Shown: positions 34,945-40,283, counted from the stretch's first letter. The stretch: 40,283 nucleotides of DNA from Mycoplasmataceae bacterium (GCA_031259945.1 JAIRKU010000025.1:1-40283), one strand, 5' to 3'. A program made the numbers and translations. Notes: a model not told the origin generated them from the letters alone.

Positions 34945-35026
34945 AAAAGTGTTACCATTATATAGGAATTTTATTTAGTGTATTATTGAAGTTAATTTAT
35001 GATATAAATATCTCATTAGTTTAAAC

Positions 35027-35242
35027 ATGATCAACACAAGAGAGAGAGAGAGAGAGAGAGAGAGAGAGAGCAACTTAGTTGTTCTTGACGCTTTAGCTTT
35101 TCTTAAAAGCAAGAATTTAGCATTTGCTAGTTCTTGCTTTTTTTATTGTCTAGTTGATCATTTTCACAAGAGAGAAAAATGAAAATCTTTGACAATAAAA
35201 AGTAGCCACTTATGAATACTCCATGAACTATCACAACTTTAA
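35027..35242 (+). CDS. Leader mini-ORF of cassette 2, 71 residues in the present repeat length
   Basis: ATG-ATC-AAC-ACA runs into the AG tract as (Arg-Glu)5 and, because 16 AG units leave frame 2, continues through the palindrome, the terminator and the ribosome site to TAA at 35240, overlapping the start of the next gene at 35212. In the other three cassettes tract length places a stop (TAG or TAA) two codons after the tract. No ribosome site precedes the ATG, but the predicted 5' end lies close to it, so near-leaderless initiation is possible. Whether it is translated is unknown, and the read-through frame is broken in cassette 3, so it is unlikely to be a functional protein. Confidence 0.35.
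35039..35070 (+). repeat. (AG)16 tract of cassette 2
   Basis: Sixteen perfect AG units, the longest in the window and the most prone to slippage. It is the only tract with n = 1 modulo 3. Confidence 0.95.
35105..35146 (+). terminator. Attenuator-type terminator in cassette 2
   Basis: Outer stem AAAAGCAAGAA / TTCTTGCTTTT (11 bp) with inner stem TAGCA / TGCTA, followed by TTTATT. It lies between the promoter and the gene it serves. Its 5' arm also pairs with the upstream GCTTTT, giving two exclusive folds. Confidence 0.75.
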
Positions 35243-36003
35243 TCTTCTTTTTTATGACATTAGTTATTGCTACGCCATTCTTTACATGAGGAATAATTGA
35301 GAATAGAAAAAACTATAAATTGTACGGTTCCTATGATGACAAAAAAATTATTTTCCCCATCAAAATTATTGGGGGGCTTCTTCTTTTACTAGAAATTCTT
35401 AAATTGGTTGTCAATGCTACGACAAACAATTTTGTTCCAGATGTTCTCCCTTTTCATTATTCTGATTATGTTATATTCACACTTGCTACTTTTGCATTCT
35501 CTAAGAAAGATACATTAATTAATAAATTATCGTTCATCAACTTTATGATGATCGGAGGTGCCATTGTATTGAGTTTATTGGTAGTGCCAAATATGGTGGT
35601 AGATTTTCGAGCTTTATATTGTGAAAAAATTGCCTATAACACTGTTCATGCATTTATTACCCATTATTTTATTTTCTATGCATTTTTATGATTAGTAATT
35701 TGAAAAATCATTAAACTATCATACAAAGATATTTTATTAGCATTATTTAGTGCGATTATAGTTTCTATCATAACGATGTCTTTTGGGTTCATATTTAGAG
35801 CTAATTATGATTATTGTTTGGCATCGCCATTTTCAGGCACTCCTGGCGATTATCATCCCGACTGAAGTTATATACAACCTATCTATGCCTTTCTCATATG
35901 ATTGCCATTGTCTATTATTTTATTAGTCGGAATATTCACACTTGTATGATTGATAAATTACAAAATGATTTATCGTAAACCAAAAGCTAAAAATAAACAT
36001 TAA
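35212..36003 (+). CDS. YwaF/TIGR02206-like integral membrane protein
   Basis: A 263-residue polytopic protein with about seven helices. The central LPFHYSDYVIFTLATFAF resembles the LPLHLC-type motif of YwaF-like proteins, and ANYDYCLASPFSGTPGD lies between the last helices. Similar proteins occur in several mycoplasmas with no known function. It has UGA Trp codons from the fifth codon onward, so the N-terminus MNTPWTITTLIFF is missed in the standard code. It lies directly behind AG cassette 2, with a poor ribosome site of its own, and shares TTAA with the convergent APC permease stop. Confidence 0.75.
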
Positions 36004-37700
36004 ATTTGGTGCGGCGCATATTCTTCCATAACAGGTACAGAGGTTGTGCGAGGATGAGATGGGTGAACAGGATGATAAAGCGGTTGTTTATTTTTAATTA
36101 GAGCTGGTAACATACTTACTTTTACGAAAGCAAACAACATAACTATGGCAATTGATGAACCGATTAAGCTCTCCGTCACACTATTTTGATCTTCAATTGA
36201 TTTATCATGAATAAAACTATTTAAGCTAATACCAAAATCAGCAAATGAATTAATAAACACAAAAATAATGCCAATTCCCACAATTGAAATAGCGACTATT
36301 GCCGAAGGCAAGAACACCTTAGATTTTTTTACTTTTACTTTATGTGTTCAACGATTTCGTAATGCACCAAATATCGCAAATGAAACACACACAAAAGCAA
36401 ATAATGCATTTCAATTAGCATAAGTGTCTACAAACGACAGTACATTTGCCATGTCGTTTGAAGCTTGGTGTGCACCAGCGTAAATAGATGTCCCATCAAT
36501 CGAAGTCATACTGGCATAATGACCAATATCCCAAAATCAGGGACCAACCCCAAAAGTAATCAAAAATATAATCATGAAAAAAATGGTAGCATATACGCTT
36601 CCTACTAATGGTTTATCAGTATTTAAACGGTATTTGAATGGTTTACCAAATGGTATTTCGTCGTGCTTAATAAGTGATTCATAAAATCGAGGAGCATAAA
36701 CTGCACTACCAGTAATCACACTTAACATTCCAATAAATACACATACCATTAGTATTTGAATCAAAATAGTAGGGAAGGGAGAAACCTCAGGATTCAATCC
36801 AAACAGCGAACCGTCTTTACTTCCGATTAGAAGTGAAGTAGAAACAAATATTTCAAATAAAGCAACAATACTAACGCCAATTGTTAAAGACTTAGGCATT
36901 TTACGTGGATTGCGCATTTCTGTTTGTAAACCAGCCGCAGAATAAAAACCGTCAAATGAAAAAAACACTGCTGGAATTGAATTAAGTACTCCACATACTA
37001 AAGACATGTGTGTAAAAGTTTCTACGGTTGGTTCCTCTCCTTCGTGCACTGGTTTAAACCAACTAGCATTTTCATATAAACCATTACATGCTAATACAAT
37101 AAAACCAGATACACAAGCAAAAAATAGAGGAACAAATTCAATTATAGAAACTACTCAATTAGAAATATTCGCTACTTTAGAAAAGAAACCCACAAATCAA
37201 ATATGATATATTCCTAAACCAAGTGTAATTAACGCACAGCCTCACCATGGCATTTGATAACCAAAAGCTTGTTGGGATACCATTATCATATAAATAGGCA
37301 TCATTACATAGATAATGGGTACATGTAAATAAGCCATGAAATTTTTAGATGATCGATATAAAAATTTACCATTAAATTCTCTTACTCATCCGATAATTCC
37401 TTGACTATTGGCTTCGCCTGAACCACTACAAATTTCAATTAAAGAAAAAGCTAAAGCTAAAATACCTATAATTGCAATTAACCAAGATAAAATAGCGTAA
37501 AATAATGCTCCTTGAGTGTTATTGAGGATATTTCAGTTTTTAATGAAGATACCTGCTCCTACTGAAGAACCGATAACCAACATAATACTAGAAAAGAAAC
37601 CAATTTTCTTTTTAGTAGGTTGTGTAGCAATAGAACGAGATTTTTGTAAAGGTGAAACGGTTGTTTTGGAATTAGTTTTAATTTTCCTAACAATTTTCAT
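36000..37700 (-). CDS. APC superfamily amino acid permease
   Basis: A 566-residue transporter with about 12-14 helices. The first helix has the APC substrate motif MLVIGSSVGAGIF after a 35-residue basic cytosolic N-terminus. The sixth-helix region PAVFFSFDGFYSAAGLQTEM with the following NPRKMPKSL is typical of the family's LCT/APC members. The C-terminus is a His/Pro-rich tail (YHPVHPSHPRTTSVPV). The substrate is not evident; mycoplasmas use such carriers for arginine, histidine and other amino acids. UGA Trp codons are frequent. Flanked by AG cassette genes on both sides, but transcribed in the opposite direction and without a cassette. Confidence 0.92.
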
Positions 37701-37939
37701 ACAATAATTTTAAATTAAAAATATTTTTTTGCAATAAGTTTTTATTGTGTCGTTACGAATATAAAAAATTCATTTAACTATTACCCGCATTTAATTAAAT
37801 TTTTTTAATCTTTTCTCTAACGACAAGATCTTTACATTGTTAGAAATCTTTTTTATGTCAACCAAGGAGCAAGCAATATTTTGTATATTGTTATTTTTTA
37901 TTGTATAAGTATTACATTAATTTAAACATGATCAACACA

Positions 37940-37961
37940 AGAGAGAGAGAGAGAGAGAGAG
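37940..37961 (+). repeat. (AG)11 tract of cassette 3
   Basis: Eleven AG units starting 30 nt after the -10 box, so within the transcribed leader. n = 2 modulo 3. Confidence 0.95.
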
Positions 37962-37993
37962 CAACTTAATTGCTCTTGACGCTTTAGCTTTTA

Positions 37994-38036
37994 AAAAGCA
38001 AGAATTTAGCATTCGCTAGTTCTTGCTTTTTTTATT
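37994..38036 (+). terminator. Attenuator-type terminator in cassette 3
   Basis: The outer stem AAAAGCAAGAA / TTCTTGCTTTT is identical to cassette 2; the apical loop has a T-to-C change (ATTCGC). It is followed by TTTATT. The upstream GCTTTT that can pair with AAAAGC is kept, although two bases between them are lost. Confidence 0.75.
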
Positions 38037-38067
38037 ATCTGGTTGATCATTTTTTGAGGGAGAAAAA

Positions 38068-39152: not shown

Positions 39153-39182
39153 TTTGCAGATAGATTAAATATGGATTAAAAA

Positions 39183-40016
39183 TTACACCGGCGCCGCAAT
39201 CTTTTTCTTAGACAGTTGAACAGAACATAGCACACCGAGTTGCGCACCAATAATCGTGCTTAACAAGTACAAAGGATATTGTATCCAACCTAAGGCTGCA
39301 TTTTCACCCCACGATTGGAAAACTAAGGGAGCAAGCGAACGAAATGGGTTACAAGAAGCTCCAGTTAAAGGAATTTGGACGGTTACAATTACTACCAAAA
39401 ATAAGGTTATTAAAACCGAATTAATCATACAGCATTGTAATTCTGAACGTTTGTTTTTTTGATTATATCTTCGTTTTGCCAATTGAAAAATAGCTAATGT
39501 AAATAAAGCAAAAAAGCCAAACTCAATCATAAACCCTAAAAGCATACTAGCTATACCTGCTTGGTTCACTCCATCAATATTGATTTTGTCTACCCAAATA
39601 TGTTGATTAATGGTAGTAATGCCTAATGTCGTCGGGTTAGCTCATTGTGTATGATCATAACTACCGGCAATTACATAAACTGTTAACCCAGCTAGTATAG
39701 TTCCTACAAGCTCCACTAGCAGGTAGCAAACTGATTGTTTGGCTTTGAAACCTTTGTTAGTTCACATTGCTAATACTAAAGCAGGATTAAACAATGCTCC
39801 TCCGTGACCAAAGAATAAAATTAGAACAAATAAAAAAACATAGCATGATCCAAAAGTTAAACTAAATTCAGTTCAGTAAACTATTTCATTGGTATTATCA
39901 GAATGAAATAAGTTAGTTACTTTAAATGCCCAAGATAATACCAAAGTCATAAAAATCAGTAAATAAGTTCCAAAAAACTCGTCCACACAACAGTGCTTTA
40001 AAGATTTTGGTGACAT
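39183..40016 (-). CDS. MIP family channel (aquaporin/glycerol facilitator type)
   Basis: A 277-residue protein with six membrane helices. The first half-helix motif is intact, FGHGGALFNPALVLA (NPA at 77-79); the second reads TGASCNPFRSLAP, so NPA is NPF at about 223-225, with the pore arginine following. The start at MSPKSLKHCCVDEFFGTYL is the first in-frame ATG; a GTG farther upstream in frame is possible. Mollicutes usually have one GlpF that supplies glycerol for glycolysis and lipid synthesis, but the altered motif makes substrate uncertain. UGA Trp codons present. Confidence 0.88.
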
Positions 40017-40082
40017 AAATTTGTTAGTAGCAAATTGCTTGATGTCCACATTGAAATTATCATATATTACATTAATTGTTAC

Positions 40083-40122
40083 TTAATTAATTTTCATTTT
40101 TTTTAATTAATTTTCATTTTTT
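40083..40122. repeat. Perfect 20-nt tandem duplication before cassette 4
   Basis: Two identical 20-nt units (40083-40102 and 40103-40122) of TTAATTAATTTTC type, placed where the -35 of cassette 4 should lie. The duplicated DNA is also the upstream region of the channel gene on the other strand. Confidence 0.9.
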
Positions 40123-40162
40123 ATTGTATAAGTATTACATTAATTTAAACATGATCAACACA

Positions 40163-40178
40163 AGAGAGAGAGAGAGAG
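40163..40178 (+). repeat. (AG)8 tract of cassette 4
   Basis: Eight AG units; n = 2 modulo 3, as in cassettes 1 and 3. Confidence 0.95.
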
Positions 40179-40212
40179 CAACTTAGTTGCTCTTGACGCT
40201 TTAGCTTTTCTT

Positions 40213-40254
40213 AAAAGCAAGAATTTAGCATTTGCTAGTTCTTGCTTTTTTTAT
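40213..40254 (+). terminator. Attenuator-type terminator in cassette 4
   Basis: Stem AAAAGCAAGAA / TTCTTGCTTTT with inner TAGCA / TGCTA and a following TTTATT; sequence identical to cassette 2 in this part. Confidence 0.75.
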
Positions 40255-40283
40255 TGTCTAGTTGATTATTTTCACAAAGGAGA

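Follow-up and report, generated by a model that had tools for sequence, protein, structure and literature searches.

The stretch of DNA analysed here (the window; 40,283 nucleotides) is contig C12 of the 848-kb, 28-contig draft genome (G000) of an uncultured gut mycoplasma. It contains four related leaders, at 15486, 35003, 37881 and 40127, all on the + strand, which had been placed correctly in the first-pass annotation and were located again by inspection of the sequence. Each leader combines a -10 box, a small leader open reading frame (ORF) within which an (AG)n tract sits, and a palindromic hairpin (P1). The tract lengths reported earlier (5, 16, 11 and 8 repeats) are exact, and a terminator (P2), a 9-bp enclosing arm and a ribosome site were all found in the leaders at 35003, 37881 and 40127; the leader at 15486 has lost the terminator sequence. 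The features of the four leaders and of the genes that follow them are given below, with the basis of the assignment in brackets.

15509-15562, + strand: leader 1, -10 box TATAAG (15509-15514) and leader ORF (15533-15562) (sequence, frames)
15545-15554, + strand: leader 1, tract (AG)5; the ORF stop TAG lies in the hairpin loop (sequence, frames)
15552-15568, + strand: leader 1, palindrome hairpin P1; a canonical terminator is absent 3' of P1
15723-16118, + strand: hydrophobic protein of 131 aa, 3' of leader 1, without a Pfam match
35003-35242, + strand: leader 2, -10 box TATAAA (35003-35008) and leader ORF (35027-35242) (sequence, frames)
35039-35070, + strand: leader 2, tract (AG)16; the current frame passes the terminator, predicted ON (frames)
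35068-35084, + strand: leader 2, hairpin P1 (sequence; family covariation)
35105-35144, + strand: leader 2, intrinsic terminator P2, stem and T7 (-17.5 kcal/mol, z -4.55)
35212-36003, + strand: multi-span membrane protein of 263 aa, 3' of leader 2, TMEM164 family (PF14808, E 1.5e-13)
37904-37969, + strand: leader 3, -10 box TATAAG (37904-37909) and leader ORF (37928-37969) (sequence, frames)
37940-37961, + strand: leader 3, tract (AG)11; stop 28 nt 5' of the terminator stem, predicted OFF (frames)
37959-37975, + strand: leader 3, hairpin P1 (sequence; family covariation)
37994-38033, + strand: leader 3, intrinsic terminator P2 (-18.4 kcal/mol, z -5.69)
38068-38874, + strand: membrane-anchored protein of 268 aa, 3' of leader 3
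40127-40186, + strand: leader 4, -10 box TATAAG (40127-40132) and leader ORF (40151-40186) (sequence, frames)
40163-40178, + strand: leader 4, tract (AG)8; stop 30 nt 5' of the terminator stem, predicted OFF (frames)
40176-40192, + strand: leader 4, hairpin P1, with the stop codon TAG in its loop
40213-40252, + strand: leader 4, intrinsic terminator P2 (-17.5 kcal/mol, z -4.49)
40276-40283, + strand: leader 4, ribosome site AAAGGAGA, at the contig end

The fourth leader does stop at the window edge, as had been noted; it is cut there because the contig itself ends, at an assembly break in a repeat. The last 119 bases of the window recur without a difference where contigs C1 and C20 start, and the gene after this leader is the first gene of C1 (a lipoprotein) or that of C20 (a membrane-anchored protein). 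The N-terminus of the 268-aa protein after leader 3 (..NNVLTAKEHRIW..) is common to other leader-linked surface proteins. The earlier placement of the tract in the transcribed leader also stands: tracts start 13-50 nt 3' of the -10 box, outside the promoter spacer in which a vlhA-type tract would lie, and the main coding gene, which would carry the tract of a coding-frame switch, is set apart from the tract by the terminator, a second ribosome site and a start codon.

A search of this genome and its relatives for the leader consensus, as proposed with the first-pass annotation, returned about 20 copies in the draft genome and copies in 7 of 36 genomes of the genus. The pattern AGAGAGAGAG matched 24 times in the real sequence and never in 100 shuffles, and all 13 tracts of (AG)6 or longer that were found in this genome with an end-anchored pattern are located in such leaders. 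Copies lie on contigs C1, C5, C6, C12, C14, C18, C20 to C25 and C27, with a fragment on C7. Leader copies often coincide with assembly breaks. A sequence search added about 15 copies in a sibling species (G024; MAG Mycoplasmataceae bacterium Pcl387_bin181, JAITJR01), and a covariance model combined with a pattern search added the genomes G019, G046, G023, G006 and G043. A reversed control pattern had no match in the 36 genomes of the genus, a model search of 198 genomes sampled from the order had none outside this genus, viral contigs scanned for the exact terminator-consensus pattern gave no match, and a plasmid search found none. Each species is represented by one genome and the copies compared are paralogues, whose tracts, with lengths taken from short-read assemblies, have n of 4-21 (AG) or 7-10 (G). 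The results support the earlier proposal of a slippage-prone, attenuator-like leader family in front of membrane and surface protein genes; that account had missed the genome- and genus-wide extent of the family, its frame principle and the existence of a poly-G sister family.

Both the hairpin and the terminator show compensatory base changes. P1 was paired at 94.8% over 28 copies of the AG type, with 17 double-change cells (0 of 500 shuffles), and it also covaries, more weakly, in the G type; in the terminator of that type, double-change cells number 29 (0 of 500 shuffles). Because bulges misalign in the MAFFT alignment, from which RNAalifold recovered the inner terminator stem alone, the helices were tallied on named structures. 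The terminators of the window fold at -17.5 to -18.4 kcal/mol (z about -4.5 to -5.7). The enclosing arm, in which the start of the leader mini-ORF pairs with the stretch before the ribosome site, is present in the three window leaders for which it had been described and in most copies of this genome, and is compensated in the C18 copy, but it does not hold as a family-wide part, being absent or weak in the C21, C24 and G019 copies. As a core part it was rejected: pairing within copies was no better than pairing between swapped copies (p = 0.12 and 0.23).

The reading frames around the tract were read with translation table 4; the third frame includes a TGA, a codon that probably means Trp in these mycoplasmas. 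An ATG in frame with the tract lies at most 30 nt 5' of it in 65 of 68 copies, against 19 expected by shuffling, and a TATAA[TAG] box lies upstream in 60 of the 68; the leader AUG has no Shine-Dalgarno sequence. The bases separating the leader ATG from the tract vary widely among copies. The terminator hairpin and its T-run are present in all 71 copies analysed, a set that leaves out the terminator-less window copy at 15486. Depending on n mod 3, the leader frame has its stop in the first hairpin or immediately 5' of it, often 26-45 nt short of the terminator stem; or, in many copies, directly adjoins the stem with its stop; or enters or passes the terminator, often ending at a TAG or TAA in the 3' arm. 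In 67 of the 71 copies, from seven genomes, one frame stops at least 18 nt before the terminator stem and another within or past it, so that the length of the tract would decide, through the frame, whether a ribosome gets as far as the terminator. Of 63 copies, 57 have a frame that runs into the terminator without a stop (41 expected under dinucleotide shuffling), an excess that is modest for the AG type alone (39 against 31.4 expected); since the copies are related, these frame counts describe a tendency and overstate independence, and are not independent trials. Of the 64 copies whose assembled allele could be read, more than expected have the far-stop frame (39 against 27.7, p 0.002) and fewer than expected have a frame that enters or passes the terminator (13 against 22.3, p 0.007), both p-values presupposing independent copies. 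This excess of the predicted OFF frame is as expected if most members are silent. In the window, the leader at 35003 (n = 16) is predicted to be on, and those at 37881 (n = 11) and 40127 (n = 8) off.

A single model hit with a poly-G tract, on contig C3 of G023, was the query that led to a sister family of leaders: G023 has about 10 copies, G043 about 17 and the present genome one. Since poly-G tracts as such are frequent in these genomes, the counts take in just those copies that were reached by way of the leader sequence. Their layout is that of the AG type: a TATAAT box, an ATG, a tract of G7-10, a one-frame stop right after the tract and a hairpin, followed by a pyrimidine-rich linker, the terminator, a ribosome site and a surface gene. 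The open frame, typically IKxNSATSTNLILSLKTRTLHL, ends inside the terminator. The AG tract encodes Arg-Glu repeats and the G tract glycine. AG has thus been exchanged for G within an unchanged architecture, so that a slippery tract, and not a particular sequence or peptide, is the part that persists.

We read these leaders, with good confidence, as devices for slipped-strand phase variation that act through leader-peptide transcription attenuation. Transcription would start a few bases 3' of the TATAAT-like box, and a ribosome would begin at the AUG near the 5' end and read through the repeat. Slippage of the (AG)n or G(n) tract during replication would alter n and with it the frame of all leader sequence downstream. 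In the early-stop frame the ribosome would halt right behind the tract or within the first hairpin, at least 18 nt before the terminator, which could then fold and leave the surface gene off; in the open frame it would cover or melt the terminator, and RNA polymerase would proceed into the gene. The third frame of many copies, with its stop adjoining the stem, is probably on or intermediate. From the frames and structures we infer that the leader is translated, that its translation affects termination and that populations switch; with many leaders per genome, cells could display ever-changing subsets of surface proteins.

The leaders might instead serve mainly as recombination anchors, that is, as near-identical promoter-leader cassettes through which surface genes are swapped or converted, the tract being a by-product. 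Leaders that are up to 100% identical over 119 bp do stand before unrelated genes, with assembly breaks at these places, the N-terminal coding sequence that follows is also common to some copies, and the leader fragment on C7 adjoins an inverted (AC)n element, which is found upstream of the C6 leader as well. We nevertheless consider this explanation unlikely, as it predicts none of the in-frame AUG, the frames tuned to the terminator, the replacement of AG by G or the covariation of hairpin and terminator between species. An anchor role may exist in addition to the frame switch.

Still less probable, in our estimate, is that tract length acts without translation, through RNA folding or stability, leader spacing or an effect on the promoter. 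The tract begins merely 13-50 nt from the -10 box, and in the leader at 40127 the predicted pairing of the terminator falls mildly with long AG tracts, from 0.96 to about 0.81 at n = 20, a loss by which n could have some frame-independent effect. Otherwise the predicted pairing of P1 and P2 is nearly independent of n in both tract types, which leaves the frame as the property that n sets; the tract lies 3' of the -10 box, outside the promoter spacer, and the retention of an in-frame AUG and of the stop-codon layout would go unexplained. That the leader ORFs encode functional small peptides (an Arg-Glu repeat or a Gly run) whose expression is tuned by a conventional attenuator is hardly credible: a start codon and an open frame are kept and the frame that enters the terminator has a slight synonymous excess, but the repeat-encoded peptide differs wholly between the AG and G types, two of the three frames end a few codons past the tract, and the long-frame sequence drifts between copies. 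The open-frame peptide is only weakly conserved (synonymous fraction 0.34 against 0.30 and 0.25), and its conservation was dropped as a main argument.

Frame-dependent attenuation of the kind favoured here has a partial counterpart in the pyrBI-type attenuator of E. coli, in which leader ORF and terminator overlap, a ribosome that follows RNA polymerase closely keeps it from terminating, and the response to UTP comes about through polymerase pausing. The mycoplasma leaders resemble it in the overlap of leader ORF and terminator and differ in that mutation, rather than a metabolite, sets their frame. A closer precedent is found at pil1 and pil3 of Streptococcus gallolyticus, where a leader peptide changes its frame through the GCAGA repeats within it (Danne et al. 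2014, PMC3894217): a stop at least 28 nt before the terminator gives low pilus expression and an adjacent or internal stop high expression, and the model was confirmed for pil1 by mutants of the AUG, the stops and the terminator (PMC3894217). Both systems have the tract in a leader-peptide ORF and a terminator before a surface-protein gene, with access to the terminator decided by frame (a prediction in the present case), and the stop-to-stem distances are close to those in S. gallolyticus. The mycoplasma leaders belong to a different phylum and have no sequence relation to pil1 and pil3; their repeat unit is AG or G, not GCAGA, their AUG lacks a Shine-Dalgarno sequence, an additional covarying hairpin follows the tract, and up to about 20 leaders occur per genome instead of two loci. 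Because of the pil1 precedent, the physical coupling of transcription and translation in M. pneumoniae (PMC8116511), and the normal functioning in mycoplasmas of starts without a Shine-Dalgarno sequence or with very short 5' ends (PMC10568206), we read the leaders, by analogy, as independent, sequence-unrelated cases of the pil1 principle in the form of a multigene family; homology is neither claimed nor expected.

The first-pass annotation had called the repeat-bearing leader a different design, which holds against the mycoplasma switches known to us (such as vlhA) but not against bacteria overall, given pil1 and pil3. In M. gallisepticum, the GAA tract of vlhA is situated some 40 nt 5' of the transcription start, acts at the promoter and is active at 12 repeats (PMC6258824). 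It too is a short slippage tract upstream of a large lipoprotein family with most members assumed to be off; the tract of the leaders described here is transcribed, lies within a leader ORF and is predicted to act by frame. The type III methyltransferase of M. mycoides, with 12 AG repeats (PMC3498834), shares the frame-shifting AG dinucleotide tract, which there lies inside the main coding gene, whereas the leader tract would govern whether transcription continues into the gene. Repeat-controlled attenuation has been reported from a single Streptococcus species, at two pilus loci (PMC3894217), is unmentioned in a 2025 review of phase variation (PMC11868660), and had no mollicute example in the part of the open-access literature that was searched. 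The principle is thus already known from pil1, and the mycoplasma leaders are the first mollicute case found in the literature covered.

It is likely that the leaders constitute a genus-specific surface-display system of mollicutes, in which each locus has its own slippage-set attenuator, AG and G tracts are interchangeable, and combinatorial variation arises at transcription termination and not through promoter or coding-frame switches. Attenuation set by a repeat would then appear to be the usual switch for entire families of surface genes in this genus of uncultured gut mycoplasmas, and the exchange of AG and G is unusually direct comparative evidence for a maintained hypermutable frame switch. 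This suggests checking the upstream repeat tracts of other AT-rich genomes for leader frames that end inside a terminator. The leader-linked proteins, which include lipoproteins and membrane proteins, bear N-terminal anchors or lipoboxes, and several have BspA-type LRR_5 or He_PIG Ig-like domains; with a TMEM164-family protein encoded at 35212, some targets are therefore not obvious surface antigens.

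The final 119 bases of the window (40165-40283) are identical to the first 119 bases of two other contigs of the same draft genome (G000), C1 and C20. The window contig stops at this assembly branch, which is caused by the leader repeat and is shared with C1 and C20, and the gene downstream of leader 4 (40127, + strand) is therefore either the lipoprotein gene of C1 or the gene for a membrane-anchored protein of C20. The opening 119 bases of JAIRME010000044 (bin Cc175_bin84; L089:1-119) are the same as the start of a further G000 contig, C25. This contig and G000 probably derive from one common metagenome assembly, and JAIRME010000044 was probably misbinned and belongs to the species of the window.

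The AG leaders have a poly-G sister family of the same architecture (L172 and L173-L198), which is present in two other genomes of the genus (G023 and G043) and as one copy in G000. Many of the tracts of G7 or longer in the G043 and G023 genomes occur in pairs of opposite orientation, separated by approximately 35-50 bp, which suggests that the paired tracts are small hairpin repeat elements. A recurrent GGTGAATAGTTAC / GTAACTATTCACC element lies immediately 5' of many leaders, including L036 (G000 contig C6), L048 (G000 contig C7) and several leaders of the sibling species G024. In C6 and C7, it adjoins an extended run of (TG)n or (AC)n, and at L048 it is fused directly to a truncated leader.

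Three diverged leaders were located in G000:
C21:19874, diverged leader L127
C23:37202, diverged leader L128
C21:27919, diverged leader L129
Their AG stretches are short and lack a preceding ATG, and the proteins encoded downstream have signal-like N-termini. These loci are possibly locked relatives.

Downstream of leaders 2 (35003) and 3 (37881), the window contains two further features:
35179-35205, ORF of 8 codons that has a separate ribosome site and separates leader 2 from the TMEM164-family gene (35212)
38340-38430, tandem in-frame duplication of YNYNQEGNDYVSHN (two copies), within the surface protein downstream of leader 3
The duplication is a possible site of size variation. The TMEM164-family gene itself lacks an obvious ribosome site.
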